From NCBI GenBank assembly GCA_963920765.1, contig OY987246.1:22143167-22207166 (forward strand): a DNA stretch of 64,000 bases, given 5' to 3'. Shown here piece after piece: positions 3,265-50,500 of this stretch. Below the pieces are notes generated by a model. The model was not told the origin of the DNA, searched no databases, and worked only from the letters and a program-made list of their open reading frames with translations. Source of the stretch: Ulota crispa. Lineage: Eukaryota; Streptophyta; Bryopsida; Orthotrichales; Orthotrichaceae. The position numbers were made by a program, and so were the translations under genes. Each line of letters begins with the position of its first letter. The stretch's first letter is position 1.

Positions 3265-4130
3265 ACAGAAATTTTGGAATCTTTTGAAGATCTTTTGGGA
3301 ATTTTTTGTGAATCTTTAAGAATCTTCAAGAATCTTTTGGGAATCATTGAGAATCTTTTTAGGATTTTTAAGAATATTTAAGAATCTTTTCGAGATTTTA
3401 GAATCTTTGAGAACCTTTTAGGAATCTTCATGAATCTTTGGAAATCTTTCAAAATCTTTTCAAGTTTTTTGGAATCTTTGAGAATGGTTGAGAACAATTG
3501 AGAATCTTTGAGAATCTTTGAGAATCTTTGAGAATCTTTTTGGAATCTTTGAGAATCTTTTCTAGTTTTTTTGGAATCTTTGCAAATGTTTGAGAAAAAT
3601 TAAGAATCTTTGAGAATCTTTGAGAATCTTTAAGAATCTTTTTGGAATCTTTGAGAATCTTTTGGAATCTTTGGAAATCTTTTCAAGTTTTTTTGGAATC
3701 TTCGAGAATGTTTGAGAACAATTGAGAATCTTTGAGAATCTTTTGGAATCTTTGGAAATCTTTTCAAGTTTTTTTGGAATCTTCAAGAATGTTTGAGAAC
3801 AATTGAGAATCTTTGAGAATCTTTGAGAATCTTTTAGGAAGATTTGAGAATTCTTGAGAATCTTTGAGAATAGTTTGGAATATTTGAGAATCTTTGGAAA
3901 TGTTCTAGGAATTTTGAATTTTTTGAGAATTTTTGAAAATCTTTATGACTAATCTTGGAATCTTCCTGGAAGCTTTGAGAATCTTTGAGAATCTTTGGAA
4001 ATCTTTTGAGAATGTTTTTGGAATTTTTAAAAATCTTTGAGAATCTCAGAGAGTTTTCAAGAATCTTTTTGGAATCTTTGAGAATCTTTTTAAAATCTTT
4101 ATGAAATTTGTTAAAGTACTTCAAAATACT
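3265..4130. repeat. Degenerate GAATCTTTGA array inside CACTA element
   Basis: About 0.9 kb is built from degenerate copies of GAATCTTTGA, GAATCTTTTGGAATC and close variants at spacings of about 10-16 bp. It lies in the left subterminal part of the CACTA element only. CACTA elements are known to use short subterminal repeats as transposase binding sites, so this may be a greatly expanded set. The same array occurs in reverse complement at about 57.1-57.74 kb in the second element. Minus-strand frames rich in K, F, S and I here are by-products of the repeat. Confidence 0.85.
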
Positions 4131-13126: not shown

Positions 13127-16100
13127 ATGACTACTCTTGCTTGAGCTTTTGGAAGGACTGCTACCAATGATATGCGGAGGGCCACAAAAAAATGGGACCC
13201 TTGGCTGACATTGGAGACTGATCCTAGTAAAGGTGTAAATTCAAGAACATGCCATTTGTGCGGATGGAACTCTGTCTTTGTATGGAAAAGAGCTCTCATG
13301 CACTTTGGATTTGGCGGAAATCCCTCTTCAGATCATTGTAAACGTGCTCCAAGGTCGGTATTGGAAAAGTTCAAGAATTGTGAGGAGGTTGTTCCAAAAG
13401 AAATGCTTTATACGGAGATGTTTGGGGTGAGCAAAAAAGGTGATGGTATTGTAGAGTCTGTGGCCCAGCCCACAACACAACCTGCGTTGGCTTTGTTACA
13501 AAAAGAATCTATAGATTCTGTCAATTCACAAAAAGTACGGCCTTCTAATCCAGATTCAGTGGATTCTACTCCAGCATCTATTGAGAGAAGGAGGTTTACT
13601 CCTTCCAGTTCTTGCCAGATGAGCATGGATGAAGCATTACAAGTGGGCGTCAGGCAGAAGTTGGATATGATGTGGGCCTCTTTTTTCTATGAGGCCAACT
13701 TTGCTTTCAATGTTGTGCAACATCCAGTTTTTGTAAAGGTGGTGAAGGAAATGGCGGCGTCCGTGTTGATGTGTCAACTGCCATCATATAACGCTGTGCA
13801 TACAAAACTGATAGACACAAAGAAGGTTGCAATTTTCAAAATGGTATCAGAGCGGACAAATCACTGTATTGAATTGCATGGAACAACCATTTGTTTTGAC
13901 GGGTGGTTTGATACCAATTCACTCATTATTAAACCTAATGCTTGTATGTCCAGCCGGCGATGTATTTTTGGGATTTTTTGACACCACCGGAGCAAAAAAA
14001 GACATTGCGTATACAATGAATATGATGGTAAAATACATAGAGGAAGTTGGACCTCAGAACAGAGTCCAACTATATAGTGACAATGCGGCGGTGATAATGG
14101 GGGCCCTTGCGAAACTGGTAGAGAAATATTCTCACATGTATAGACAAGGATGTGTAGCTCACATTATGGACTTGCTTATGGAAGATTGGGGTAAAGAGAA
14201 GCGGGTTTTGAAACTAGTAGCCAAGTGCCAACCTATTGTGAAGTTCATCAAGAAATACCATCACACATTAGGTCTTTTTCAGAAATATTCACCAAAATTG
14301 TCATTGCGACTTCCTACACAAACACATTTTGCAATGAGCTTTCTCATGATAGACCATCTAGTGGAATGTAAGCAAGTGTTGTTGTTTGTGATTCTAGACC
14401 CCTTGTATGATGGGTTCAAGAGTAGTTTGTTTTATTGGAAGAACGGTTATAATGTTTAATTGTGTGCGCAAAGAGCTCAAGAGGACATCCATTCAAATAC
14501 ATTTTGGCAAGAATATCATAATTTTTTGTACCTGATGCAACTTGCTATTGTACACCTTTAAGTGTTTAATGGAAAAACTTTGGCAATGCCCCACTCTTGG
14601 ATAGTAATGCACCAACTAAAGCTACATGTTTACTCTCTTAAGGATGAGCCTTATTTCTTAGATGACGCAATAGCAACGAAATTTGAGAAGCAATTTGTCA
14701 CTTGATGGAAACTGATGCACACTGACCTCTACTTTGCCGCGGCACTATTAAATCCATTTCTGGTCGACATATGTGTCATCCAACACAATGGCGAGGGCAA
14801 ATGTGCCTTGAATCAAGTTATACAAAAACTAAGCAGGCCATTGGAAGTGTCAGAGATGATGTAATGAGCAAATTGACGGAATTTGAAGAGAAGACAAGCC
14901 TATTTGATCCATTGCAAGAGGCACCAGATATCATCCGCTGTAAGCTGTTGCCTCATTAGTGGTGGAATCATGTGGGTGGGAATGCTCTTCCAAAAATTGC
15001 TAGGAGGGTTTTGTCTTTGACATGTTCTGCATTTTCATGCAAAAGGAATTGAAGCATATACTCATTTGTGCACAATAAAGTGCAAAACAACTTGACTACA
15101 TCCAAGGCGGAGGCGATGGTGTATATTTACGTCAACAGCAAACTAGATAGGGAGAAACGTGGGAAAAATCCAACTGATTTTTACGCAAAGTATTTGGAGG
15201 AAGCAGATACAGATGAAGAGAACAAAAAGCCACTGTCCTCAAGATCTGATGACAATATTGTGATGAGCTTCGGGCAAGAAACAAATTTTCATAAGGAAGT
15301 GGAGGAACGTCTGGATGGAAGTGTATGGTCTGGACTGGATCAAGCACTGCAGAGAGAGGTACGACATGAACGACCATATGTGAACACATTTGTCGGTTGC
15401 GCTGATGAGAACAATTCATTAGACAAGAAAGAGCACCGCACAATGGACCAGTCCCAAGTCTCGGCTTGAGATGCATTTCCAACCATAAATTTCTCACCAT
15501 TGAAGGCAAGAATTGAAGAAGAGAATATAGAAGCTCCAGACAATCCATTGCCACTAGTAGAGGAGCATGCCATATCTCCCACGCCAACTCTTCCATCCTT
15601 AATTGGAGCAGCGACCCATCTAAACGCAGCAACAATTGCCATACCAGTTATCATAGAATTTGAAAGGCAAGTGGAGGCAATAGAAAAAGAAGTGATTGCG
15701 CATGCCCGTCCTCTTATCAGTGTGGTACGTAGCATTCTCGGAACAGCATGAACAGATGACAATGACAATTTGCCATTGGAAACTATCCGGAACCTGATAC
15801 ACAGGCATTAGAATTCAACTTCAAACCAAAGAGGAGCAACCACAACCGTCACAAGCTTTCGAACGTCTAATCTAGCAATCCCAATAGCACCATAGAGTAA
15901 TGCCAGTACGATGCAGAGCATTGTTGAAGAAGTCTGTAGCACTACCTCTGAACCCACTCAATGGTCATTGAGGTCTGTCCTTGGAGAATTGTCATTGGAA
16001 GCGCATGCACTTAAATCAAAGAAACATATGAGGAGACCAAATGACAATACTCAACGTAATCGTAGACATCCCAATCAAGGTATTGAACAGTTTATCATGG

Positions 16101-20158: not shown

Positions 20159-22020
20159 AATGGATAGGGGCAAGAAGGTTGACAAAGAGTTCAAACAGTT
20201 GACAATCAGTTCTACAACGGATTAAGGCACTCAGAGTGGAAGCAACATTTAGTGTCTATTGGACATGCTTCATACCTTACAGTTGAAGACACATGGTCAA
20301 ACATTGAAGCAAGAACCACCACCGCCGTTTACATTGACACCCTTGGCACGCAATCGCCTTAGAGTGCAATCCTTTAGACAACCAAGCACTTAGGTGCTTG
20401 GTGCGTTTGCAATTCAGTTTTGGATCCAATAAGGTGGGATTCAAGTCATTTGCAATCAGCGATTGCTATGGCCTTTCCTTTGGGCACCGTAGTGTAGGGC
20501 CTAAGGAAAGATACAACAGAGCAATCTAGTGATCCCATGCTTGGCAATAGTACTGAGGAACAAGGGTCACAGGAGTGTAGTAGTCAGACACTTCTTCTTA
20601 GGACCTGTGCAACTATTCACATTCTCTTTGCTCTTCACTAAGCTCCAAGCAAAGGCTACTTGTTCCACACCACGTAGCAGTGGGAGCAAGGGTGGTGGTT
20701 GGAGAGAGCATCTAGTGTTTGGGACGCTTTAACCATATGCTTCATTGATTGAGAGGTACCACAAACCATCTACACTGCAACTCTTAATGGAACTCACAAA
20801 GCTTGGCATTATTATTATTGAAGGTTGATCACAATGTGAACACTAGATTCACCACGGCGACCTGGATACATTAAATGTGGAGTACCGTTTGTCAATGATA
20901 TTGTTTGTGATCCATTAGAGACAAGTGGATTTGTGCCAGTTTGGCCTAAAAGCTAGGGACCTTTTATTGGTAGCAGAGTTTCAAGTGAGCCAGCTAAAAA
21001 GTGTGTGGATTGGGTAGAGGACACCATCAGTAATACATGCAAGGATTGCCAAGTCCTTGAGGTGAGTCGCAAGATTAAACTTCCTTACGGACAATCTACT
21101 GTTGTTTGGGACAACATGGTGATGTCCTATGGAGGTGCCAATAGGGGAGTACGGTGTTTTTTTGGTCCCACTAGCACCATGGAGTGCAATGATTTTAGAA
21201 GAGAGTTCACTATGTGGCGTGAGCTCCAAAAATCATGCAATACTAATTTCAATCCTTCCATGGTGGAAGGCATTGTTTGGATGCTTGGAGGGAGCACTAC
21301 TATCAAACTATGGAGAGTTTGAGCTTTGCTACTCCATGGAGATATTGGCATGGTGGAATCACTACACTCCTACCTACGTTGATGTTTGGGGAAAAGAGCC
21401 TAGCGTGGTTGTCACATCTGGCAAGGACAAAGAGGAGGAGGACACTTTGGGCACGGGACATATTCTTCCGTTGCCTCCACAATAGTGGTTAGCACACGTC
21501 CTTTCAACCCCACTGCAAGATTCTTTGCACAGTTGAAGCAAGACTATCAAGGGCAACAAGCCGACAAGATGAAGCTGCTTTGCTCATTTGCTTGTGGAAG
21601 TGACAAATCCTTGCGAGAGGCACATTTGAGATTGAGGCAATTGATATCCACCATACATGGAGTGATTGAACAGCAAGTTGTGTAGCAATAGTACTCCATT
21701 CTAAATAAGGAGCTTAAGGCCCTTGTTTGTGGAGATGCCTTAAGGTTTTATTCTAGGTGTGGTATTGAAGGTTACTTGGAAGCAACTTGCTACAAGATCC
21801 ACCCCAAGCTTAAGCCCAACCATGCCAAGGACACCAAAGGAAATGATGCTAAAAAATCTAAGGCTGTAGGCAGAGAGAAGAAGTTGTAAAAGGCCCAATT
21901 CACAGAGTTGGAGGCTAAGATGGCGGTGATGAGCGCAACCACTAAAACCAAGTGGTCTTCTTCACAAACAAACACTACATCATGTTATGCAAAGGATGAA
22001 GACTACAAGATCCGCATGGA
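20159..22020 (+). pseudogene. gag: gypsy gag (capsid and zinc knuckle), decayed
   Basis: Nucleocapsid-type protein of the gypsy element. Coding-like segments at 21005-21322, 21485-21685 and onward to about 21890 share a frame with intervening stops. Around 21485-21685 the helical segment with FAQLKQDYQGQQADKMKLL and LRLRQLISTIHGV resembles the C-terminal capsid region of plant gag. A zinc-knuckle remnant follows at about 21750: RCGIEGYLEATCYKIHP. Its expected first Cys and His both read Tyr, each explainable by a single transition. A Lys-rich tail follows. The 5' part (20159-21000) is poorly preserved. Confidence 0.6.
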
Positions 22021-22199
22021 ACACTAACATATGATTTTGTGACAACATAAAGCAAAACTGTGGTCCAAGATGCACCATAATGAGCAAGCTTAGGTTGGAT
22101 TCTCAGCGAGGTGAGGCCAATTGCCAAGTGTGGCTACCTGAGTCATCTACCTTGGAGGATGTGGTGCATACTTCATCTATGGTTCCAGGTTTTTGAAAC

Positions 22200-23050
22200 G
22201 TGAATGGCTGGCGAACCACTCAAGTTCCACAGGTTGTGAACCAAACCGTGGGCACACTCTTTGAAGTGGCTACGGCTATATGCCAAGCTTTATTGTTTTC
22301 CACATTTATGATTGCATGTACACGATTCACTGCAACTACAATGTTCCACTTGGCGGCTACCATGTGTGAGGCAGATTCCTCAACATTGGTGAGCGCCATG
22401 GAGATTGTGCTTGAGCCTATAGTAAAGGCTAGCAGTGTTGTCATCAGAGCAGAGACTTTGCTATCGGCAGCCGCTTGGTTGAAGATCATGCCAGCACCCC
22501 TAGCAATAGAGCGGTCAGCCATTACTCCTGGAGTGGTGGTTCTTGACAATTTCCAAGGCATATTCCAACTTGTTGGGCCCAAAAGAAGAATTTTTGCGCT
22601 TCAACGAATACTATTGGATTCTGGTGCACAACCCTTGATACTGGGCTTATCAACCATTGAAGGCTTGGATTTGGCTGAGGGCATGTTAGAAATGTGTCTA
22701 TAGACAATTAGTACTTCTATGGGAAGGATGGAGCAAGTTCATGGCATCACAAAGAGCATGTTGATACTTCAACTTTGCCATGATGATGTTGAGGATGCTA
22801 GCTTTATGAAAGTGAAGGCTATAGTCATAGAGGCCAAGTCATATGATGTCTTGGTAAGGGCTATGGTATTATACCCTATAGATTTCACCTTGGATTTTTG
22901 GAAGGAGACAGCATCTTACATATCAGGATGGCAAGCAGGAGATGAGGACAAGGCCTAGCTGCTAGCTTGTTTTATACGATTTTTTACCAGTGACCTCACC
23001 GCTGTCAGATTGAGAGGAGCGCGCCTTGGGAACACGCAAGGTGTCTTGCT
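22200..23050 (+). pseudogene. gypsy aspartic protease region, decayed
   Basis: Retropepsin domain that would cleave the polyprotein. The catalytic motif appears as LLDSGAQPLILG (about 22615-22650), with the D-S-G triad intact. The frame 22200-22703 continues after one TAG into 22719-22958 without shift. The downstream stretch with LYPIDFTLDFWKETASY fits the C-terminal part of plant gypsy protease regions. After about 23050 similarity to a polyprotein is lost, at the left edge of the inserted sequence. Confidence 0.65.
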
Positions 23051-23059
23051 GCGATTGTA

Positions 23060-25080
23060 CGTTGCCAACTAAAATTGTCGTCAATCTTGATCTTCCTTCA
23101 AATCTTTAGTCTTCAGTCTTCCGTTGGCATATCCTGTGGTTGGCTCTAAGGGTATAAGGATCAAGGTAGGGATAAGAGCCCACTGGATACAGGACGGGTA
23201 GATTGGGACAGCAGACACAAGCTGCCGTTCGTATGACGAGATCCTAAAATCAAATTCACGATCTGTTGGCCAAAACTCCAGATCGTGAGAACAGAGCAAG
23301 TCTTAACCATGTGGATGATCAATCCCACTTTGTCACCACAACAATAAATGGGGTTAAGTTTGGTTTAACCCAAACTGCCCACAACAAGGTTTACAAAACA
23401 GAATAGAAATGAATTGACAAATGAGCCTCTAAAACCGGTTAGGAATAACAAAGCTACATTTCACACATACATAAAAAATAAATTCAAAACATTCCTTTTG
23501 AAATTTACATATCTTCAGATCTTCAAGTCTTCATGTTTTAATAAAAACAATGGGGAAAATCACAAATAACAAGTCTTAGAAAAGCAGCAACTTTCTATCT
23601 AGTGCCACAGATGACTCAAAGATTCAAATGCTAAATGTAATAGCAATTTGAAAAGCTCTTTTAATCTTCTAACATCCTTTTAAATTTCAACTCAATCTAA
23701 AATATTGTCCAAAAGTTATGCGGGTTTAAAGTAGAGGTCCTACTTCCTCCTTACAAACTAAACACTGCCTCTATAAACCTCTATAACTTTTGTTTTATAT
23801 ATCACTCATAAAAATGTGATATCAATTTAGAAAGATGATATTACTGGCTAAAATTCGTAAAATTTTCACTTTAAAATAAAACTCTGTCCAAAAGCTCTAA
23901 TCAATCACAGTGTGGGTCTCAATTTTTTAGAGAGCATCTAAACCCCCAACTTCTACCCACTATAACTTCTTCAATAAAACTCTAAATGAAATGATTAAAG
24001 ACAATTTGAAAAGCTATAACAACAAAATATCACTTCTAAAAATTTGAGAAGAAAATTTTATACTGTCCAAAAGTTGTAGCTCTTCAAAGTCTCGACCTTC
24101 TCCTAATAAAAGGGCAGCCACCTCCAAACTTTCACATCTCCATAACTTTCTTGTTTAAGCTTCAAATTTCAAGTTTAAAGACTTTCTAAAAAGCCAAAAC
24201 TAAGATGAATATTTTGTCCAAATCTTGTTGCAAAATGATATACAAATTATAAGTTATGGCTTGTCAAAGTCTCAGCCTTTCTTCATAATTTGGTTTTTTG
24301 GCTCCAAAATTCAAACACTCATAACTTTTGCATCACAATTCCAAATCAAATTTGCAAACTCATTTTGAAAAGGCAATCACACAAGAAACAACCTCCTCAA
24401 ATTTCAATTCAAAATCATGTATACACAGAAAAACCTCTCACATCAAAGTTTCAGGATTTTTCTCATCTTCTCACCAACACTCATACACTAGCTTCCAACA
24501 ACTAAAGGATCTTTCCTCCATAATTTTGACCATATTTAAGGTAGAGAGGTGGGGCACATCAGCCCATGCCCCTCTCTATCCTAACCCCACCATAGATGCC
24601 AAACCCCTTTTCCTTTCACACATTTCCCATTGACTTCTAAACCCTTAATATTTTTATTCAAACAAAGGCAAAATATATGAGCCTTCCAAAACATCTAGAT
24701 AAACATATGAAAATGATTAAATTACAAAATAAACACCATTGTAATGTGGCCATGTGCCTTTGCGAGCATATAATAGCGTCAAATGCTTGTCTTCAGTCGC
24801 CAAGTCGTGGACTTGGTTGGCTGGAGAAACGGTCGTCTTTGGCCGCTCGCCGGTCCGGGTTCAAATTCCATCGAACTCATCGAGCGGTGATGGCGGCTCA
24901 CGGCTTGATAGCTAGTGAGGCAGGAAATTGGCCCAGCCAACTTGCTACCTACCCCCTGAGCTGTGCATGCGACAAGATGGCGCAGCGCACTGGAATCTAT
25001 GGCTGCTGCGCTGTCACCAAACCGTGGTCATTACCACAACCACCTTTTTGCCACTACTGTTGATTTATTAAAATCAATAC
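23060..25080. mobile_element. Insertion within the gypsy element
   Basis: About 2 kb of non-polyprotein sequence lies between the protease and the methyltransferase linker. It contains a 180-bp tandem array (listed separately), an AT-rich part and a GC-richer segment (24750-25030). One GGTTCAAATTCC there resembles a Pol III B box. No coding frame with a known domain is present. Boundaries are approximate because I could not identify terminal repeats or a target duplication; it may be a solo LTR or another non-coding element. Confidence 0.4.
23600..24500. repeat. Degenerate 180-bp tandem array
   Basis: CATAACTTT or TATAACTTT starts near-identical registers at 23783, 23962, 24142 and 24321, spacings of 179, 180 and 179 bp. 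Each unit also carries a CTGTCCAAAAG-type motif (near 23885, 24065 and 24210; another near 23690 marks an earlier unit). Units have diverged strongly, but the spacing is kept almost exactly. Unit length is close to that of many plant satellites and to nucleosome spacing. Confidence 0.75.
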
Positions 25081-25109
25081 AAACATAAATATATAACGAG
25101 TATCTACAT

Positions 25110-26420
25110 GATGGAGATATCTCCATCAGGACACCGCTTTCTATTATTTCTTTGGACTTATAGCCACAGACCAATTTTGGTTTGAGGAGGATATTGGAAA
25201 TCCTCATGCTAATGCATCCATGGCCAAAGTTCAAGCAGATGATAACTTAGACACTTTGGAGGCTGGGAGCGACATGCTATACTAACCAGGCGTGGAGGTG
25301 CCTTGGGAGAGTACCGCCAGGCTACAACAAGTTGCAGAGGCTGTCATCCAGGAAGTGTAGCAAGAATCTCTCTTGCCACAACAGGACGTTGTAGGAGATG
25401 GAGGTATGGAAGATGCTGGTCCATCCTTTGATACCTCCATGATCTAGTAGAACTCACCAAATCCAAGTATTACTCTTTTGAAGTTATTTGGAGGTATTAG
25501 CACTAGCTTGGCTGTAATATTACAAGCAGGAGTGACAGTGCAACATTATGTCTATGTGGGCAACAATGCTCCAACACGTCAACGAACTAAGATGCATGTT
25601 TGACGGTTGCATAAAGCCTTTCTATCCTTGTTGACCACCCATGCCATCAAGACCGCATTTTCTGCATTACCTAGTGACATCACATTGATATGCAATGACA
25701 ACATTGTATGGCTAGGCCATGTGGATTTGGTTATTGCAAGATGGCCATGCCAAAGCATGTCTATGGAGGGTAAGTAGAATGATCTGATAGACGGGCACCT
25801 TTCCTGATTTCATGATATAGTATAGATTGTGTGCCACCCGCAGACATCATAGCAACAACCACCAAGGTACATTATTGAAAATGTACCTATTATGAGTATG
25901 TTGTGATTTTGAGCCTTTAAGAGCGGTTATTGCATTCATGAGACACTTGAGGTCCTACTATTACTAGATGCAGCAGTAGTGGACTCACAGGCCTATAGAT
26001 TTCAAATTTGGTAGACCAACAAGGCATTGTTAGAGTTATTACAGGCTGCCATTTGGCGCATTCACTATCCCGATGGTTATGTCAAAGATATCCTAGACCC
26101 TCACCGGTCTCCCCACCAAGTTTATCATGATGATCAGGCTTCATTGGCAGTTGTCAACCGCAAAGGCAAATTATAGCAAGCATTGCCCACATTAGTGAGT
26201 TTTTCGCACTCTTACACATTCAAAGACAATGGTCCTAGATTGGTGTGGGATTCATGTACCAAAGAGATGGTTGAGCCCAACGCTGATGAGCGCAAATGGA
26301 CTATGGGATTTCAAACCGGCGTCACCAATGCACCAGACATCACAGAGTTCCAAAGATGATATCTCATTGGTTAGGCCATGGATTTAAATTATCTATAATG
26401 GATTATTTCTCTTGTGGTGG
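25110..26420 (+). pseudogene. Cytosine-5 DNA methyltransferase domain in gypsy polyprotein
   Basis: A C5-methyltransferase would transfer a methyl group from S-adenosylmethionine to cytosine in DNA. Motifs appear in correct order in one frame: motif I LFGGISTSLAVILQAG (25484-25531, AdoMet binding), motif II-like YVYVGNN (about 25550), motif IV WPCQS with the catalytic Cys intact (PCQ 25745-25753), motif VI IIENVP with ENV at 25877-25885, a motif VIII-like AYRFQIW (about 25990), and a motif X-like stretch around 26366-26395 (IG-stop-AMDLNYL). Codon phase is identical from 25454 to 26395. At least ten in-frame stops show it is inactive. The order of motifs with the target-recognition region between VIII and X is the conventional DNMT order rather than the permuted DRM order. 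The same frame continues into RT, so it is part of the polyprotein. The upstream segment 25110-25450 (acidic, Gln-rich) looks like a linker. Confidence 0.85.
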
Positions 26421-27800
26421 CCAAGCAGAAGCAATTTTCTTCAACAATGTTGGCACACTTTGCATTCTATGAGCAGCACATGGCTATAAAACCATCAAGT
26501 GCTAGTAGTCCAAACTTGGTAGTTGGGGGCAAAGAGACCTTTGCAGCTCATCCATAGGAGTTATGGAAGGATACTTCATTTTTCACTATTCCAAGAGTTG
26601 TTTGGCCTAGTTGGAAAGCGTTGACCAAGCTTAAGCTCAAATTAGAGGAGCAAGTGGAGAGGCTATTCTCTGAGGAGCCCATAGCTTGCCAAAGAGGAGA
26701 ACTAATGCAAGTGGATTGAGTTGAAAACCAATATGGTATGATTGGCATGGAGCAAGATGAGTCTACTCCAAGTGGCATGCAATAGCAACTAAAGGTGGGG
26801 AAACTTGTTTCAAAGGAAGATTGAAGGGAAGTGGTGACCAAGGACACTCGGAAACCATTAGTAGGCCTGGAAGATGAAGTAGAGTTGATGGAGAAGCAGG
26901 AGTTCCTCAAGGAGTACATGGATTGTTTTGCCTTTGATCTTAAGGACTTGGGAGTTTTGAAAGGACAAGAGCTATGAATAGACTTGACGGATGATGCACC
27001 GATTTATTGCAAGCCGTACAAGTATAGTGAGGTAGAGTGCAAGATGATTCAAGACCAAACCATGGAATTGTTGGAGGTAATATTGATGGAGTTAGCACCA
27101 CCAAATTGTGAGTGTGCATTGGCGACAATTATGCCATCCAAAAAAGATGTTTTTGGCATTTGGACCAAAAAAATGATGTGCAAAGACTATTAGAGAATCA
27201 ACAAATTCACAAAGTTAGACAATTATGCAATGCCAACATCGGAGGAGAACTTTGACGCCATAGGCCACATCAAAGTATTTTAGTACTTTGGATTCTAGTC
27301 GAGCTATCACCAACTTGGTATTCAAGAAGGTGATAAGAACAAAACGGTGTTCTAGGGGATTGACAAAGATGGTGAAGACTGCCTTTGTTAATGGAGATTC
27401 TTTCCATTTAGTTTGAAAAATGCACCTGCTGAGTTTCAGATAATAATAAATTGCATCTTTTCTGCCATGGACTTTGTAAAATGCTTCATCAATGACATTA
27501 TTGTTTATAGCATGGATACAAAGCAACATCAAGCACACTTGCAAAGAGTCTTTGCTAGACTGAGGCTTCATGGGTTAAAACTACATCCAAACAAATGTAA
27601 GTTTTACTATGACCATGTGGAGTACTTGGACCACATGATATACCCAGGAGGATTAGGAGTGGTTGCTAGCAAGGTGGCAGTGATGATGTCTATTCCAAGG
27701 CCAAAAGATGTGAGTAAACTGTGGGTATTCTTAGGATTGTGCAATTACTATTGAAATTTGTAAAGACGTTCAGTGTTATCACAAAGCCATTGACCATATT
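26420..27800 (+). pseudogene. pol: gypsy reverse transcriptase, decayed
   Basis: Reverse transcriptase of the Ty3/gypsy type, in the same frame as the methyltransferase until about 27750. Recognisable segments include a linker (26420-26900), ATIMPSKKDVFGIW (about 27120-27160), KLDNYAMPT, SYHQLGIQEGD, and FPFSLKNAPAEFQ (about 27400-27440). The catalytic box reads FINDIIVY (27485 onward) where YxDD is expected, so the first Asp is Asn. DHVEYLDHMI and a thumb region follow. Several stops interrupt it. A frameshift near 27750 separates it from the RNase H frame. Confidence 0.85.
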
Positions 27801-28330
27801 GACAAGGAATGATCAACCTTGGATATGGGAAGATGAGCAAGAGGCAGCCTTTCAGCAATTGAAGGAACATTTATTGTCGGCACCAAAATTGAGGAGACTG
27901 ATTTTTGGTTGATCATACCAAGTGCACACCAATTGGAGCTCACTGGGGATTGGCGCGGTGTTGACTCAAATGGATGACGATGGCAAAGAGTCTGTGGTAG
28001 CTTATGCCAGTTGCTCCAACAACAATGCAGACGCATAGTATAGCTCATACAAGGGAAAGTGTTTAGCGGCGATATGGGCCACTGTCCACTTTTGTTGCTA
28101 TCTATATGGTAACAAATTCTTGCTAGTGACAGACCATCAACCGTTGAAGTGGCTAATGGAGTCTGACAAGCTTACAGACAAGCTTGCACAATGGACCCTA
28201 ATGTTCATGGAGTACAATTTCAAGGTCGTGCACCACACCAATTTGGTCAACATCGATGCTGACGGCCTCAGTCGCAATCCAAGCCTTAGCCAAGTGGACT
28301 CTACGAGGGCTAGGTGGCACTTAGAGGAGG
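27800..28330 (+). pseudogene. gypsy RNase H, decayed
   Basis: RNase H domain that removes RNA from the RNA:DNA hybrid. The region with SLGIGAVLTQMDDDGKESV (about 27940-28000), KCLAAIWATVHF, LLVTDHQPLKWL (about 28110-28150) and NIDADGLSR (about 28248-28275) follows the usual order of the gypsy domain. It is in the frame used by integrase downstream. A stop (TGA) occurs at the expected first catalytic region near 27910. Confidence 0.8.
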
Positions 28331-28589
28331 GGAAAGATTTGTTACCAAGGTGGCACATAGCTGTCTATTTGAGCATAGTGGTGGTGAATGGAGACATTAC
28401 CAACAAAGCCATTGAGGTCTTAGTAGATACGGATGGTGGTGAAGAGTCTGAGGGTGCTTAAAACATCTTTGATGATGTGGAGGTGATGAAATACTTGAAG
28501 CATGGCAAAATAGCAACTAGTGCTTTAGCCAAAGAAAGAGACCAAATTCTACAACGGACCAAATAGTTCGTATGGAAAGGGGCTCATTT

Positions 28590-29520
28590 GCTTTTAGTAT
28601 GGCCCAATGGCAACTAGAGGGTGGTGCCGGTGCTTTACGAAAGAGTGAAGTTAGTTTTGCATGCGTACAAGGACTTGGAGCACTTTGGAATGTGGAGAAC
28701 TCACAGCTTGCTACAAATATACTATTGGTGGCGAGGTATGCAAATGCAAGTCCAACAGTTGGTAGCCAGATGCACAATGTGTAACAATGTGCAGGCATCA
28801 TTTAATGCCCTAATGCCTCAGTTATAACCATTGCCAATCATGGAATTGGGCTATAGGTGGAGTTTTGACTTTGCAAGACTATTGCCAATGACCTTCTAAC
28901 ACAACAAGTGTGCATTGGTGATGATCAAGCACTTTTCTAAGTGGATTGAATTGGTGGCTTTGCTTGATAAGTTCAATGAAGGGGTAGCTTATTCATTTAT
29001 GGATCATGTGATGAGTTGCTTTGGAGTTCCGGCAGTGGTGTTAACCGACTAAAGGCGAGAGTTTCTTGGTGAGTTTCAAGCCTTATGTGAGGAAGCAATG
29101 ATTGACTACCACACTACTTCAAGAGATCATCTTGAAGCAGATGGGTTGGTGGAGCGCATGGTGCAGACCATCAAGAGGGGGCTTCAGAAGTATAGCTTGA
29201 AGAAGGGGCATCATGGAAATTGGGACTTGCAACTATTGTGGATTGCCATGGGCTACCAATTTAGCTAACAAGCGTCACTTGCTTCTTTTTCAACCTATTG
29301 CTTATTGTTTGGGTGCCATCCGATTTTACCAGTGGCAATCAAGCAAGATATGTATAAAGTGTTGGATCACGTGGATGATCCGGACATGTGGGCTTGGTCA
29401 TGTGAGCAACGGACGGAATTATACAAGAAGGTGATGCCCATTGCTTTGGAAAACTCCTCTATTGCGCAATGTAGAGATACTCTATGATATGCTATAATTC
29501 AAGAAGGAGGCTATAGGCCT
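28590..29520 (+). pseudogene. gypsy integrase, decayed
   Basis: Integrase with an N-terminal HHCC zinc-binding module (paired His near 28650-28672, CTMCNN near 28780) and a DDE core. First Asp is in SFDFAR (about 28867), second Asp in LTD just before an in-frame TAA (29047-29049), and the Glu in GLVERMVQ (about 29151). The segment KHFSKWIELVALLDKF is typical of plant gypsy integrases. The C-terminal part runs to about 29490. Stops are present but the frame is continuous with RNase H and with the PHD region. Confidence 0.85.
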
Positions 29521-29765
29521 CAAGTGTAATGCTTTCTACGTGGCAACTATGTTTATCTCTAGCGGAGAGCACCCACCACCCTTGACATCACGGCAGGGCG
29601 TATTATTCTACGAGTTTGCGAGGTGCTCAAGTCAGGAGTTTTGCTCTTAGAGGATTATGATGGCAAGATCTGGAAGGATCACATGTGCAATTGTGCGCTA
29701 TGTCATTTGCCACATATTGACTGCGGTATTAATTCCACCAATTCAAGCATATCAATAGGACTGAA

Positions 29766-29907
29766 GTGCGTTTTATGTGGTAGCGCCAAGGGTACTGCCA
29801 CTATGGTGTTATGCAACATCTGTTCGACGGGGTAGCACACGGATTGTTTGACTCTGCCGTTGCAAGAAATATCAGCGGGTTGGTGGGTTTGTCCCAAGTA
29901 TGTGTCG
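29766..29907 (+). pseudogene. PHD finger after integrase, same frame
   Basis: A C4HC3 zinc finger: CVLCGS, then LCNIC, then a stop where the Trp before HTDC is normally found, then LPLQEISAGWWVCPK. The last Cys reads Tyr (TAT), a single transition from TGT. Spacing and the hydrophobic WWVCP ending fit the PHD family, which reads histone H3 tails. It lies about 280 bp after the end of the integrase core, in the same codon phase as RNase H and integrase, so it was part of the polyprotein. In chromoviruses a chromodomain occupies the equivalent place. Confidence 0.75.
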
Positions 29908-30025
29908 GGGCACGGACAAGCATCATCATCGGTGTAGGGTTTTCCATTGGGTTCTCCTAGGTACTTTGGAGAAGGCCACTGAGTTTGCTAGTGTGAAAGG
30001 GGCTTTGACATCAGCAAAGGGAGCA

Positions 30026-31037
30026 AGTAAAGGAGTGGTTAACAACCACTTTCTACACCTAGTGTTAGTTATGGGGTATTTATTTCTTTTTTACTTGCTA
30101 TGGATGTTGTTGATGTTTAGAGTTTGAGATAATAGAATGTTTTGCATTTTGCTTATTGCTTGCAGGATTTGCCATGATTGCAATACACATCGCAACTACA
30201 TGGGATTTTTCCTATGACCACGATACCTACCATTAATTAGGAGCTATAGGATCCTAGCATAGTTAAATTTCTAGCTATTTGTAGGATTCTTAGTTACATG
30301 GCACCTACACTTGCATGATTAGCATGATACTATCTAGGCATGATGTGTTTGTGCACGACAGCGATCATGCTTGTGAGGTGGCCACAACATTCGCATCAGC
30401 GCCAACAAGATGGAGCCAGCAAGGTGGATGAAAAGTGGGTGGAGATTTATCAAGGGCCTTGGTCCTTAGCTTAGGCCAAAGGCTTGGCACCTCATTTTGA
30501 CATTTCAAGGCCATAACCTCCACGTAGAGGCTTGGAAGACTAATCTTTCTCTAACTTGAATCTTCCATATGATAGAGTGAGAGGCTGTTGCCTTGCAACT
30601 TTGTTCCAACATGCACACATCCTTCAAGGATGATATAGACTTGGCTTTATGATTTTGTGAGGTTTTTCTAGCTCCTTTAGGAGCTTTTCCTCACCTTTTA
30701 TTAGTAAAGGAGTGGTTATCAACCACTGTCTACACCTGGTATTAGTTATGAGGTGTTTATTTCATTTTTACTTGCTATGGATGTCGTTGGTGTTTAGTGC
30801 TTGAGATGGTAGAATGTTTTGCATTTTGCTTATCGCTTGCGAGATTTGCCGTGATTGCAATACACATTGCAACCACGTAGCGTTTTTCCTATGACCACGA
30901 TACCTACCATTGGTCAAGAGCTATAGGATCTTAGCATAGTTAGATTTCTAGCTATTTGTAAGATTCTCAGTTACATGGCACCTACACTTGCATGATTAGT
31001 GCGATACTATCTAGGCACAATGTGATTGTGCACGACA
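30026..31037. repeat. 677-bp-period direct repeat, candidate LTR copies
   Basis: AGTAAAGGAGTGGTTA begins a sequence at 30026 that recurs at 30703. The two copies match for about 335 bp (30026-30360 and 30703-31037) at a constant 677-bp offset and both end in TGTGCACGACA. The purine-rich AGTAAAGGAG followed by TGG resembles a polypurine tract and LTR start. One reading is a full LTR followed by a truncated tandem copy; a simple local duplication is the alternative. No matching LTR was seen at the 5' side. Confidence 0.7.
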
Positions 31038-31039
31038 AG

Positions 31040-43574: not shown

Positions 43575-44527
43575 TAAATCTACAACAACAACTACCTCAT
43601 TCAAGCCATCCACTTCTTGCAATTCACTACATCTATTAATGTAAGGAAATTGCAACTTATCAACCTACTCTAAAGTCCTCAACCCGACTACATTCCTAGT
43701 GCTAAAATCATCCAACTCAAGAAATGCATCCAATCCATTTGCTTCCTGCAAATTGCTACACCTTCCAATGCTCAACCGCTGTAAATAAACAAGCTTCTCT
43801 AAAGTAGGCAACTCCTAAATAACATTGCAAATCCCAGCTCCAAACTCTTCAAAAGCAACCAACACATCCAGCACATGCACTTCCAACAATTGCCTATGTC
43901 ATCCGATGTCAACAAACCACAACTTAGTCAACTTTACTTAACTGGAAAGCTCGTGCATACCACTGCCTTCCCAAGCTCCAAACTTTTCCAAGACAACCAA
44001 CGCATCAAATCCACGCACTTCCTGCAATTTGCTACATCCAAAACATAAAGCACCTGCAACTTGGTCAACTTTTCTAAAGTAGGCAGCTCCTCATTGCCAC
44101 TGCATTCTCAAGCTCAAAACTCTTCCAAGATACCCAACTCATCCAACCAATGCACTTCTTGCAACTTGCTACAGCCATTAATGTCTAGCACACGCAACTT
44201 AGTTAGCTTCTTTACAATGGACAGCTCTTGAGGATCAATGCAATCTTCAACTTGAAACTCTTCCAACACAACCAAATCATCCAACCCTCGCACTTCCTGC
44301 AACTTGCTACATCCATTGACATAGAGCAACCGCAACTTGATCAGCTTCTCTAAAGTGGGCAGCTCCTTGATACCATTGCAATCCCTAGCTCAAACCTCTT
44401 CAAAGGAAATCAACTTATCCAACCCACGCACTTTTTGCAACTTGCTACATCCTCTAATGTTCAGCTTCCGCAACTAAGTCAGCTTCTCTAAACTAGGTAG
44501 CTCCTCAATACCATTGCATATCCAAGC
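43575..44527 (-). pseudogene. Decayed LRR extension downstream of TNL stop
   Basis: Beyond the TGA at 44528-44530 the LRR repeat pattern continues in the same direction for about 950 bp. It includes SKLQEVRGLDDLVVLEEF (within 44335-44114), then increasingly degenerate units with several stops and frameshifts. The TGA itself replaces a codon that reads CGA in other repeats at the same position, a C-to-T change. The coding sequence was once longer, and its 3' end has been decaying since truncation. Confidence 0.8.
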
Positions 44528-47500
44528 TCAAAACTCTTCCAAGGCAACCAACTCATCCAACCCACGCACTTCCTTCAACTTGCTACATGCATTGATGTTG
44601 AGCACCCGCAACTTGGTCAGCTTCTCTAAACTAGGCAACACCTTAATACCATTGCATCTGCCAGCTTGAAACTCTTCCAAGGCAACCAACTCATCCAACC
44701 CACGCACTTCCTTCAACTTGCTACATCCATTAATGTCTAGCACCCGTAATTCAGTGAGCTTATTTAAAGTGGGCAGCTCCTGAAGGCCAATGCAATCCTG
44801 AACTCGAATCTCTTCCAAGGCAACAACCCCATCCAATCCGCGCACTTCCTGCAACTCGCTACATCCATTGATGTAGAGCAACCGCAACTTAGTCAGCTTT
44901 TCTAAAGTGGGCAGCTCCTTAATGCCATTGCAATCCCCAGCTCGAATCTCTTCTAAAGCAACCAACTCATCCAACCCACGCACTTCCTGCAACTTGCTAC
45001 ATCCATTGATGTAGAGCAACCGCAACTTAGTCAGCTTCTCTAAACTTGGCAGCTCCTCAATACCATTGCATCTGCCAGCTCGAAACTCTTCCAAGGCAAC
45101 CAACTCACTCAACCCACGCACTTTTTGCAATTTGCTACATCCCCTAATGTTTAGCTTCTGCAATTTGATCAGCTTCTCTAAACTAGGCAGCTCCTCAATA
45201 CCACTACATTCCCAAGCTCCAAATTCTATCAACTCAACCAACTCATTCAAACCATGCAATTTTTGCAATTGCATACAACCTCCTATAAAGAGCACCTGTA
45301 GCTTAGTCAAAGTTGCTAAACAAGATAGCTTCTCAATACCACTACATTCCCAAGCTTGAAACTCTTCCAACTCAACCAACTCAGCAAACCCACAAACTTC
45401 TTGCATTTTGCTACATCCATTAATCTCTAGCACCCGCAACTTAGTTAGCTTCTCTAAAGTGGGTAGCTCCTCAAAACCAATGCAATCCTCAACTCGAAAC
45501 TCTTCCAAGGCAACCAACTCATCCAACCCACGCACTTCCTGCAACTTGCTACATGCACTGATGTCGAGCAACCGCAACTTAGTCAGCTTCTCTAAACTAG
45601 GTAGCTCCGCAATACCACTACATTCCCAAGCTTGAAACTCTTCCAAGGCAACCAACTCATCCAACCCACGCACTTCCTGCAACTTGCTACATCCATTGAT
45701 GTAGAGCCGCCGCAACTTAGTCAACTTCTCTAAACTTGGCAACTCCTCAATACCATTGCATCTACTAGCTTGAAACTCTTCCAAGGCTACCAACTCACTC
45801 AACCCACGCACTTTTTGCAATTTGTTACATCCCCTAATGTTTAGCTTCTGCAATTTGATCAGCTTCTCTAAACTAGGTAGCTCTGCAATACCACTACATT
45901 CCCAAGCTCCAATCTCTTCTAAGGCAACCAACTCATCCAATCCACGCACTTCCTTCAACTTGCTACATGCACTGATGCTGAGCAACCGCAACTTAGTCAG
46001 CTTCTCTAAAGTGGGTAGCTCCTCAATACCATTGCATTCCCAAGCTTCAATCTCTTCCAAGGCTACCAACTCATCCACCCCACGCACTTCCTTCAACTTG
46101 CTACATGCATTGATGTAGAGCAACCGCAACTTCGTCAGCTTCTCTAAACTAGGTAGCTCCACAATACCACTGCATTCTTGAGCTTCAATCTCTTCTAAGG
46201 CAACCAACTCATCCAACCCACCCACTTCCTGCAACTTGCTACATCCATTGATGTAGAGCAGCCGCAACTTAGTCAACTTCTCTAAACTTGGCAGCTCCTC
46301 AATACCATTGCATCTACTAGCTTGAAACTCTTCCAAGGCAACCAACTCACTCAACCCATGCACTTTTTGCAATTTGCTACATCCCCTAATGTTTAGCTTC
46401 TGCAATTTGATCAGCTTCTCTAAACTAGGTAGCTCCGCAATACCACTACATTCCCAAGCTTGAAACTCTTCCAAGGCAACCAACTCATCCAACCCACGCA
46501 CTTCCTTCAACTTGCTACATCCATTGATGTCGAGCAACCGCAACTTAGTCAGCTTCTCTAAACTAGGTAGCTCCGCAATACCACTGCATTCCCAAGCTCC
46601 AAACTCTTCTAAGGCAACCAACTCATCCAACCCATGCACTTCCTGCAACTTGCTACATCCATTGATGTAGAGCAACCGCAACTTAGTCAGCTTCTCTAAA
46701 CTTGGCAGCTTCTCAATACCATTGCATCTGCTAGCTGGAAACTCTTCCAAGGCAACCAACTTTATCAACCCACGCATTTTTTGCAATTTGCTACATCCCC
46801 CAATGTTTAGCTTCTGCAATTTGATCAGCTTCTCTAAATTAGGTAGCTCCGCAATACCACTCCATTCCCAAGCTCCAAACTCTTCTAAGGCTACCAACTC
46901 ATCCAACCCATGCACTTCCTGCAACTTGCTACATCCATTGATGTAGAGCAACCGCAACTTAGTCAGCTTCTCTAAACTTGGCAGCTCCTCAATACCATTG
47001 CATTCCCAAGCTTGAAACTCTTCCAAGGCAACCAACTCACTCAACCCATGCACTTTTTGCAATTTGCTACATCCCCCAATGTTTAGCTTCTGCAATTTGA
47101 TCAGCTTCTCTAAACTAGGTAGCTCCGCAATACCACTACATTTCCAAGCTTGAAACTCTTCCAAGGCAACCAACTCATCCAACCCACGCACTTCCTTCAA
47201 CTTGCTACATGCACTGATGTCGAGCAATCGCAACTTAGTCAGCTTCTCTAAACTAGGTAGCTCCGCAATACCACTGCATTCCCAAGCTTGAAACTCTTCC
47301 AAGGCAACCAACTCAGCAAACCCACGCACTTCCTTCAACTTGCTACATCCATTGATGTAGAGCAACCACAACTTAGTCAGCTTCTCTGAAGTGGGTAGCT
47401 CCTCAATACCATTGCATTTGCAAGCTCCAAACTCTTCCAAGGCTACCAACTCATCCAACCCACGCACTTCCTTCAACTTGCTACATCCATTGATGTAGAG

Positions 47501-50500
47501 CAACCGCAACTTAGTCAGCTTCTCTAAACTAGGTAGCTCCACAATACCACTGCATTCCCGAGCTTCAATCTCTTCTAAGGCAACCAACTCATCCAACCCA
47601 TGCACTTCCTGCAACTTGCTACATGCATTGATGTAGAGCAACCGCAACTTAGTCAGCTTCTCTAAACTTGGCAGCTCCTCAATACCATTGCATCTGCTAG
47701 CTTGAAACTCTTCCAAGGCAACCAACTCACTCAACCCACGCACTTTTTGCAATTTGCTACATCCCCTAATGTTTAGCTTCTGCAATTTGATCAGCTTCTC
47801 TAAACTAGGTAGCTCCGCAATACCACTGCATTCCCAAGCTCCAATCTCTTCTAAGGCAACCAACTCATCCAACCCACGCACTTCCTGCAACTTGCTACAT
47901 TCGTTGATGTAGAGCAACCGCAACTTAGTCAGCTTCTCTAAACTAGGTAGCTTCTCAATTCCATTGCATTTGCCAGCTTGAAACTCTTCCAAGGCTACCA
48001 ACTCATCCAACCCACGCACTTCCTTCAACTTGCTACATGCATTGATGTCGAGCAACCGCAACTTAGTCAGCTTCTCTAAACTAGGTAGCTCCGCAATACC
48101 ACTACATTCCCAAGCTTGAAACTCTTCCAAGGCAACCAACTCATCCAACCCACGCACTTCCTTCAACTTGCTACATCCATTGATGTTGAGCAACCGCAAC
48201 TTAGTCAGCTTCTCTAAGTTAGGTAGCTCTGCAATACCACTGCATTCCCAAGCTTGAAACTCTTCCAAGGCAACCAACTCATCCAACCCACGCACTTCCT
48301 TCAACTTGCTACATCCATTGATGTAGAGCAGCCGCAACTTAGTCAGCTTCTCTAAAGTGGGTAGCTCCTCAATACCATTGCATCTGCTAGCTTGAAACTC
48401 TTCCAAGGCAACCAACTCACTCAACCCATGCACTTTTTGCAATTTGCTACATCCCCTAATGTTTAGCTTCTGCAATTTGATCAACTTCTCTAAACTAGGT
48501 AGCTCCACAATACCACTGCATTCCCAAGCTCCAATCTCTTCTAAAGCAACCAACTCATCCAACCCACGCACTTCCTGCAACTTGCTACATCCATTGATGT
48601 AGAGCAACCGCAACTTAGTCAGCTTCTCTAAACTTGGCAGCTCCTCAATACCATTGCATTCCCAAGCTTGAAACTCTTCCAAGGCAACCAACTCACTCAA
48701 CCCACGCACTTTTTGCAATTTGCTACATCCCCCAATGTTTAGCTTCTGCAATTTGATCAGCTTCTCTAAACTAGGTAGCTCCGCAATATCACTACATTTC
48801 CAAGCTTGAAACTCTTCCAAGGCAACCAACTCATCCAACCCACGCACTTCCTTCAACTTGCTACATCCATTGATGTAGAGCAACCGCAACTTAGTCAGCT
48901 TCTCTAAACTAGGTAGCTCCGCAATACCACTGCATTCCCAAGCTCCAATCTCTTCTAAGGCAACCAACTCATCCAACCCACGCACTTCCTTCAACTTGCT
49001 ACATTCGTTGATGTAGAGCAACCGCAACTTAGTCAGCTTCTCTAAACTAGGTAGCTTCTCAATTCCATTGCATTTGCCAGCTTGAAACTCTTCCAAGGCT
49101 ACCAACTCATCCAACCCACGCACTTCCTTCAACTTGCTACATCCATTGATGTAGAGCAACCGCAACTTAGTCAGCTTCTCTAAGTTAGGTAGCTCCGCAA
49201 TACCACTGCATTCCCGAGCTTCAATCTCTTCTAAGGCAACCAACTCATCCAACCCACGCACTTCCTGCAACTTGCTACATGCACTGATGTCGAGCAATCG
49301 CAACTTAGTCAGCTTCTCTAAACTAGGTAGCTCCGCAATACCACTGCATTCCCAAGCTCCAATCTCTTCTAAGGCAACCAACTCATCCAACCCACGCACT
49401 TCCTTCAACTTGCTACATTCGTTGATGTAGAGCAACCGCAACTTAGTCAGCTTCTCTAAAGTGGGTAGCTCCTCAATTCCATTGCATCTGCCAGCTTGAA
49501 ACTCTTCCAAGGCTACCGACTCATCCAACCCACGCACTTCTTGCAACTTGCTACATCCATTGATGTTGAGCAACCGCAACTTAGTCAGCTTCTCTAAGTT
49601 AGGTAGCTCCGCAATACCACTGCATTCCCAAGCTCCAATCTCTTCTAAGGCAACCAACTCATCCAATCCACGCACTTCCTTCAACTTGCTACATGCACTG
49701 ATGTTGAGCAACCGCAACTTAGTCAGCTTCTTTAAAGTGGGTAGTTCTCTAAGATTAGTGCAATTTTGAGCTTGAAACTCTTTAAGGGCAATTAGTTTAT
49801 CCAAACCAGGCATGAATGGGAGTTTGATACATCCCCCAATTTCAAGTGTAGAGAGCCTAGTGAGCTTTTCTAAGGTGGGTAGTTCCTCTATATCACTACA
49901 ATTCCAAGCTCCAATCGCTTCCAAGGCAATTAAATTATCTAAACCTTGTAGTGATTGAAGTTTGCTACAGAAAGCAATGTCAAATACCTTCAACTTAGTG
50001 AGCTTTTGAAAGCTGGCCAACTTCCAAACTTTGCTGCAATTTATAGCTATAAACTCTTGAAGAGCAACTAAGTCTTCTAAGCCAAGCACTAATTGAAGTT
50101 TTCCACATCTATCAATGTCAAATACCCGTAATTTTGAGAGCTTTTGTAAGTTGGGCAACTCCTCAATACCACCACAATCCCAAGCTCGAAACTCTTCTAG
50201 GGCAACCAAGTTATCCAAGCCAAGCACTGATTGAAGTTTGAAACATCCTCCAATGTTTAGTACCCGCAACTTAGTGAGCTTTTGTAAATTGGGCAACTCC
50301 ATAATTTCCATATTACTCCAAGCAAGAAACTCCTCCAGGGCAACTAAGTCATCTAAGCCTGGTACTGATTTAAGTTTTGTACATCCATGAATGCTCAATA
50401 CCTGCAATTGACTAAGCTTCTTTAAGTTGGGCAACCCCTTTATGTTACTACAACCCCAAGCTTGAATCTCTTTCAAAGCAACTAAGTTATCCAAGCTAGG

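Follow-up and report, generated by a model that had tools for sequence, protein, structure and literature searches.

A decayed Gypsy-like retrotransposon with a DNMT3-type cytosine methyltransferase in the moss Ulota crispa, and the multi-copy family to which it belongs

Retrotransposons bearing a DNA cytosine methyltransferase (DNMT) are already known as a kind of element. The closest known example is KnitGypsy-Dnmt3 from the charophyte alga Klebsormidium nitens. In the available text of PMC5890265, it is an intronless Gypsy-type element whose unrearranged DNMT3-type domain is placed in the Pol ORF and is under purifying selection, with Ka/Ks below 0.2; DIRS-like repeats are mixed with the Gypsy type (Fig. 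4 legend), and the domain is regarded as having been acquired independently within the K. nitens lineage. The same portion of that paper describes two retrotransposons with a DNMT from Symbiodinium, SymbioDIRS-Dnmt3 and SymbioLINE-Dnmt, based on tyrosine recombinase or LINE machinery, the former with A-ORF-B-A-B repeats. Both SymbioDIRS-Dnmt3 domains tested were found to methylate CG de novo in yeast; SymbioLINE-Dnmt and KnitGypsy-Dnmt3 displayed no activity, and human DNMT3B failed too in the same assay (PMC5890265, available text). Methylation of cDNA is one of several roles proposed there, and the accessible part of PMC12344493 mentions DNMT3 in retrotransposons of streptophytes, citing the 2018 paper.

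The present analysis concerns a window of 64,000 nucleotides (the whole stretch of DNA analysed) from U. crispa, in which a Gypsy-like retrotransposon of a multi-copy family carrying a DNMT3-type cytosine methyltransferase was shown to reside as a dead copy. The remnant occupies 20294..31038 on the forward strand, as do all its parts given below, and was delineated by blastn to loci L013 and L030 and by a repeat map; its limits are the extent of L013 homology and the end of the second copy of a repeat termed B. The gag remnant (21267..22613), now spread over several frames, was recovered by tblastn with the gag frame of L013 (46-70% identity by piece), and the aspartic protease remnant (22557..22697, motif LLDSGAQ) shared 52% with L013 and gave no Pfam match. 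Reverse transcriptase (RT; 26828..27640, RVT_1 E 1.5e-14) is followed by RNase H, shifted to another frame by decay (28039..28275, PF17917 E 7.4e-15), by an integrase core remnant without a Pfam match (28780..29334, 65% to L013) and by a PHD finger region (29686..29910, PF00628 E 3.2e-8). Matches to rve and H2C2 were obtained for the integrase of a relative, L029, and a tblastn match to the PHD finger lay inside the element stretch in 14 of 19 fetched copies.

The original prediction, made from the letters of the window, had placed a cytosine methyltransferase within the polyprotein of a Gypsy-type element, and a PF00145 match (E 2.9e-6) was indeed located upstream of RVT_1 and RNase H. The domain extends over 25469..26419, as defined by this match, by a 10-copy alignment and by a PDB profile search with six copies, and motifs I, IV, VI and an X-like end occur in order and in a single phase, as had been stated. 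Motif IV (WPCQ, 25742..25753) retains its PCQ and the announced catalytic Cys (codon 25748-25750), and motif VI (ENV, 25877..25885) is kept as well. An in-frame match to PF00145 had been suggested as a check: the first of two DNMT pieces (25475-25891) scored 27.4 bits for a curated cut-off of 22, and the second (26084-26434) had no Pfam match when taken alone. Both pieces and RT share one codon phase, yet 12 in-frame stops interrupt the 951-nt domain of the window copy in the 10-copy alignment, and frame changes occur further downstream. The predicted position between protease and RT was borne out, and the element's protease may free the domain, as was also proposed. The protease remnant now lies further off, owing to about 2.1 kb of foreign inserted DNA (22987..25142, ends approximate, from comparison with L013). 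This insertion splits protease from methyltransferase and is missing in L013; the same 2.1-kb repeat is also present at L027 and L025, and partly at L023. Inside it, GGTTCAAATTCC near 24850 resembles a tRNA-type B box. An Rfam scan of the window at gathering scores gave no match.

Other features were recorded in the window. A TIR-type resistance-gene-like cluster occupies 43792-53433 on the reverse strand; it includes an ORF with a TIR domain (52837-53433, PF13676, 1.5e-13), an ORF without a Pfam match (51499-52227) and a leucine-rich ORF of 2264 aa (44528-51322) consisting of about 43 copies of a 138-nt tandem unit, all on that strand. A DUF659 match at 13815-14459 on the forward strand (1e-17) presumably represents a hAT-like transposase remnant, and a protein-kinase fragment was present at 1684-2313 on the same strand (1.5e-8). 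Arrays of a 10-nt unit (TTTTAGAATC/TTTGAGAATC-like) were observed at 3272-4100, with a reverse-complement-like form near the other window end (57111-57744).

The class of the enzyme was examined with a profile of six copies searched against PDB. The 29 best sequences were DNMT3A, DNMT3B and DNMT3C (E 1.5e-8 to 5.1e-6), followed by 4onj (1.7e-5), which we take to be tobacco DRM, HhaI (7.7e-5) and DRM2 (7.1e-4); no chain named DNMT1 was present among the 58 matches. By this profile search, the element enzyme appears DNMT3-like, nearer to DNMT3 than to DNMT1, CMT, DRM or bacterial enzymes. Its motif order differs from that of DRM; the profile search and motif order together ruled out an enzyme of CMT, MET1 or DRM type. 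Motifs I, IV, VI, VIII and X are unrearranged, with PCQ, ENV and RxR, in open relatives and are partly lost in the window copy; L029 reached 45.9 bits against PF00145. Of the 49 open proteins covering the site, 48 have the catalytic Cys, as do 19 of 20 genome copies; the Glu of ENV occurs in all 50 open proteins covering it and in 16 of 19 genome copies, with a stop in one more. Both Arg of motif VIII were present in 51 of 51 open proteins covering the site; among decayed genome copies, they were kept in 10 of 15 (stop in four more) and in 6 of 19, respectively.

The extent of the family was estimated over 274.8 Mb of the U. crispa genome (157 contigs), copy counts being lower bounds. At least 46 matches were returned by a PF00145 profile search, around which 20 ten-kb loci (40 were sought) were fetched and compared. 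In 19 of these, the methyltransferase was upstream of RT in the same orientation, the loci having been chosen by their PF00145 match; the RT of L026 sits 3.6 kb further away. None of the element pieces matched L016, probably a host gene, and host loci L002 and L005 presumably resemble DRM, judging from their motifs. Because of this choice of loci, a second count was begun from the integrase. The integrase of a relative gave 153 matches (757 candidates, 150 scored), and for 77 of the 82 best of them a methyltransferase match was present 1.5-9.5 kb upstream on the same strand, at a distance of 2.90-3.11 kb in 50 of the 77; the matches left out of these 82 were weaker fragments and elements of 25-31% identity. 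The pairing took 96 of 124 DNMT matches, the omitted ones being further fragments of copies already listed, and these 96 merge into at least 90 loci; two pairs of matches, on C3 and C4, each seem to stem from a single copy that was listed double because of an inverted duplication. Nearly all family matches seen fall on contigs C1-C11. The search for family members lacking the domain, through which the original prediction could have failed, thus confirmed the methyltransferase as a fixed part of a large family in this genome. The nearest fetched copy to the window is L013 (62-73% protein identity in DNMT, RT and RNase H), and a few more loci of the window-L013 subfamily exist outside the fetched set. 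Intact copies were found at none of the U. crispa loci read, the open copies coming from other sources.

As a separate observation, DNMT elements were about four times denser on C11 (6.3 Mb), the smallest among nine contigs compared, with 8 of the 90 merged loci and 1.27 per Mb vs 0.33 overall (binomial p 0.001, tested only after the enrichment had been noticed). That C11 may be a sex chromosome is a guess.

Codon substitution patterns were compared between copies, more distant pairs being saturated for dN/dS. The DNMT ratios were 0.238 (95% 0.163-0.338) for window-L013, 0.199 (95% 0.133-0.280) for L029-L017 and 0.156 (95% 0.104-0.220) for L029-L023, with RT values of 0.165, 0.136 and 0.197, respectively. 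The DNMT was therefore under purifying selection (dN/dS 0.16-0.24), its ratio exceeding that of RT in two of these three pairs. Between decayed copies (L017-L023, L014-L028 and L014-L012), the ratios rose to 0.531, 0.488 and 0.605 for DNMT and to 0.389, 0.394 and 0.406 for RT, as expected from the drift of dead copies, and constraint on the DNMT appears a little weaker than that on RT in this comparison.

The ends of the element were analyzed from the repeats of the fetched loci. Near the 3' end, a repeat B of 103-113 bases flanks a stretch A of 329-400 bases in 8 of 19 loci (L009, L010, L011, L015, L018, L019, L021 and L025); this arrangement was not seen in the other 11, the fetched DNA ending at 10 kb for 16 of the 19. 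In the window, B is longer (335 bases) and surrounds a 342-base stretch: the first copy lies at 30026..30360 (89% to the second), A, assigned by its position between the two, at 30361..30702, and the second copy of B at 30703..31037. A recurs at the 5' end in five loci, with 84-89% likeness. No B was found near that end, from 1 kb upstream to 2.6 kb inside, in the five loci examined, and sequences preceding this first A were not common to them, indicating that it forms the edge of the element. Within the window, neither a 5' repeat nor a 5' partner of A was found. The unit starts with TG in four of five copies (TC in L015) and ends with CA in three and TA in two. Target duplications of 4 bp (AGAT, AATT, AAAT and GTGA) accompany four of the five (L010, L011, L018 and L021) and none was detected for L015. 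Over 551 bases, the two flanks of L021 resemble each other (76%), suggesting that the flanking repeat was the target and that the copy landed between two of its units. Once integrated, the element reads A1-ORFs-B1-A2-B2, with split repeats arranged as in DIRS elements but combined with a DDE integrase. A standard LTR pair was ruled out by these split repeats and by the lack of B at the 5' end, so that the machinery is Gypsy-like and the element is not a standard LTR element. As for a primer-site pattern (plant initiator-Met), only short TGGTATC matches in three loci were observed.

The continuity of the codon phase from methyltransferase into RT, as originally described, was upheld only in part: the phase is indeed the same, but a conserved in-frame stop intervenes at the DNMT-RT junction (TAG-CAA-CTA, 26783..26791). 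A stop of the form TAG-CAR-YYN occupies the junction in 14 of 20 copies, its last base being A in 13 and G in L021. The codon that follows CAR varies between Pro, Leu and Ser, yet its bases remain YYA in 13 of the 14. TAG-CAR-YYR was present in 14 of 19 intervals (L026 omitted) vs a mean of 0.56 and a maximum of 4 in 500 random sets of the same first-order composition; since the copies share descent, the 14 stops are not 14 independent events. L011 and L022 carry TAA-CAA-YYA, and no leaky-type pattern was found in the intervals of L019, L024, L026 and L028.

In L029, the junction reads TAG-CAA-TCA and the first Met of the downstream frame is residue 117, within RT. Proteins P0022-P0037, known as proteins alone and thus without their stop context in DNA, mostly span 1252-1451 aa (14 of 16); all 16 end 64-143 residues past the DNMT match, and in six the final residues are ALSAT and one more. 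In the available text of PMC2754532, CAR YYA 3' of UAG is described as essential for readthrough of tobacco mosaic virus RNA. By its sequence, the junction corresponds to the type I readthrough pattern, with UAG, CAR YYA and in-frame coding downstream. From this conserved signal, the shared frame and the fact that no Met precedes the RT core of L029, we infer that the stop is read through. The methyltransferase is on the Gag-protease side of the leaky-type stop and hence not simply within one Pol frame; an ordinary Pol-frame fusion was replaced by this arrangement. If readthrough is partial, the DNMT would be on the more abundantly made side.

Relatives were sought in protein databases, with 21, 37 and 13 proteins returned in overlapping sets; 8 of the 21 were of bacterial type and matched weakly (E 5.7e-4 to 9.2e-4). 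The strong matches, relatives with long open frames, came from metagenomes and from the liverworts Marchantia polymorpha (P0041, P0043, P0044, P0045 and P0048) and Calypogeia fissa (P0039, on an 8.8-Mb contig). The Marchantia relatives are on contigs of up to 27 Mb and are therefore not stray DNA. Closterium provided a weak match (P0058, E 8.4e-13, 29% of query covered), and no relatives were found among viral contigs. L029 (CADCWO010000201.1) is a 9,285-base contig from a cyanobacterial genome bin with two long open frames, ORF1 encoding gag-protease-DNMT and ORF2 RT-RNase H-integrase-PHD; exactly 127 bases are shared between its two ends, as expected if the assembler closed a circle, and it is read as eukaryotic DNA in a bacterial bin. 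P0003, from an Obscuribacterales bin, is labelled as a bacterial DNA cytosine methyltransferase, the sequence being that of a retrotransposon of eukaryotic type. Both P0003 and L029 are apparently misbinned DNA.

The window and L013 form a pair on a deep branch of the DNMT tree (99/88), the rows nearest to them by path being a metagenome protein and Marchantia, and the same pair was obtained with RT (99/97) and integrase (98/94). The window, L013, L029 and their kin constitute one group in the RT tree (81/97, with a Marchantia row, not starred) and in the integrase tree (98/96); deeper forks of the trees are weak. Outside this group is L038, an element of the same genome (RT 22% and integrase 25% identical). 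L038-type elements, another integrase-bearing kind, display open frames of 1164-1223 aa at at least 21 places, many of them equal-scoring, and none of the DNMT matches listed belongs to them by position; this success without a nearby DNMT implies that the enzyme is not needed for success.

Layouts other than that of the window family were also encountered. DNMT and RT are in one frame in P0046, P0049 and P0060. In a distant element group, the order is RT, DNMT, then integrase and PHD (P0051, P0054, P0057 and P0061, the latter from EukProt) or DNMT-integrase-PHD with no RT within the piece (P0053 and P0056). P0044 from Marchantia joins DNMT to RT, which may be a gene-model effect as the related models P0041, P0045 and P0048 stop there. 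These varied positions suggest that the domain either changed place within pol or was acquired repeatedly, and the one-frame or displaced DNMT of some relatives indicates that expression of the enzyme at Gag dose would not be universal.

Concerning function, the reading towards which we lean slightly, on the basis of sequence data, is that the DNMT3 is made at Gag dose through readthrough and methylates the element's own new DNA. Gag-protease-DNMT3 would be the main translation product and readthrough of the leaky-type stop would yield the Pol extension. At Gag dose, the DNMT3 would travel in the particle or to the nucleus and methylate new DNA copies during reverse transcription or shortly afterwards, and the PHD finger on the integrase may, by recognising a histone tail, help in selecting the insertion site or in holding on to it. 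The benefit is speculative: new insertions could resemble host heterochromatin on arrival, avoiding harmful expression or recognition as foreign. CpG depletion was rejected as evidence that the element methylates itself, the observed/expected ratio of the window copy (0.34) being little different from that of the rest of the window (0.43); values were 0.26-0.55 for the 19 loci and 0.78 for the coding DNA of L029.

The position on the Gag side of the stop, hence possible abundance, and the presence of a PHD finger within the same element would also suit an enzyme acting in trans, mainly on host DNA or chromatin and not on its own cDNA. We regard this as unlikely, because the DNMT is kept inside the polyprotein under a constraint near that of RT, and K. 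nitens, which hosts such elements, has a plant-like methylome according to the available text of PMC5890265. Somewhat less credible again is a restraining role, offered in the discussion of that paper (in the part available), whereby self-methylation lowers transposition and hence host damage: the same anatomy fits, but a purely self-limiting domain should often be lost, and it was retained with 77 of the 82 best integrase matches. The location at the end of the Gag-protease product and the inactivity of the KnitGypsy domain in yeast, an inactivity shared by human DNMT3B (PMC5890265, available text), agree with a role in the Gag particle, structural or in nucleic-acid binding, for which catalysis is irrelevant; the near invariance of the catalytic Cys, Glu and Arg in open proteins makes this rather improbable. 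Chance insertion of a host DNMT gene into this single copy can be dismissed, as the domain recurs at this position in about 90 loci of the genome and in the relatives from liverworts and metagenomes.

Methylation of the element's own copies may be part of an older history. A tentative possibility, which we rate well below that reading, is that an old streptophyte split-repeat Gypsy lineage has kept a self-marking kit since before the moss-liverwort split, the K. nitens element being a branch of it. In such a kit, particle-loaded DNMT3, supplied at Gag dose by a tobamovirus-type leaky stop, would methylate copies before integration, and the integrase PHD finger would steer the premethylated copy to matching chromatin.

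DNA methylation is a main host tool for transposon silencing, yet this family carries and conserves an enzyme of this kind. Its hosts, as seen so far, comprise at least two liverworts besides the U. crispa genome. As Marchantia is a genetic model, the question of why a parasite carries a methylating enzyme becomes testable, and the leaky-type stop leads to a definite prediction of how much enzyme is made.

The likeness to methyltransferase domains of algal retrotransposons, anticipated in the original prediction, was substantiated by KnitGypsy-Dnmt3, which was likened to the window family by its published description and not by sequence; no protein named K. nitens was returned by the searches for relatives. 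As far as the available text of PMC5890265 extends, the two share an unrearranged DNMT3-type domain, intronless and under purifying selection, in a Gypsy-type element and the same mixture with DIRS-like repeats. They differ in their hosts, a charophyte alga vs a moss and liverworts, and in the place of the domain, in the Pol ORF of KnitGypsy-Dnmt3 whereas a stop parts DNMT from RT here; neither a PHD finger nor a leaky stop is mentioned for KnitGypsy-Dnmt3 in that text, and both are present here. No description of DNMT-bearing retrotransposons in mosses or liverworts was seen among the top matches in the open literature, judged by title and start of abstract. As far as these searches show, the bryophyte hosts, the leaky-type stop with the DNMT on its Gag side, the PHD finger and the other domain positions are new with respect to the open literature searched. 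The Symbiodinium elements carry a DNMT as here, but on tyrosine recombinase or LINE machinery instead of a DDE integrase (PMC5890265, available text). Split direct repeats are common to DIRS elements and the window family; no match to their tyrosine recombinase was found in ORF2 of L029, which has rve and H2C2. With Gypsy (Ty3), the family shares the order protease-RT-RNase H-DDE integrase and, in most of the five copies tested, ends of the TG...CA kind with short duplications of the target. Chromoviruses are chromodomain Gypsy elements with a histone-reader-type module after the integrase, a place taken in the window family by the PHD finger, and the family has a DNMT in addition. The type I stop of tobamoviruses is alike in its UAG CAR YYA, with the difference that its readthrough is here predicted between Gag-protease-DNMT and the RT of a retrotransposon.
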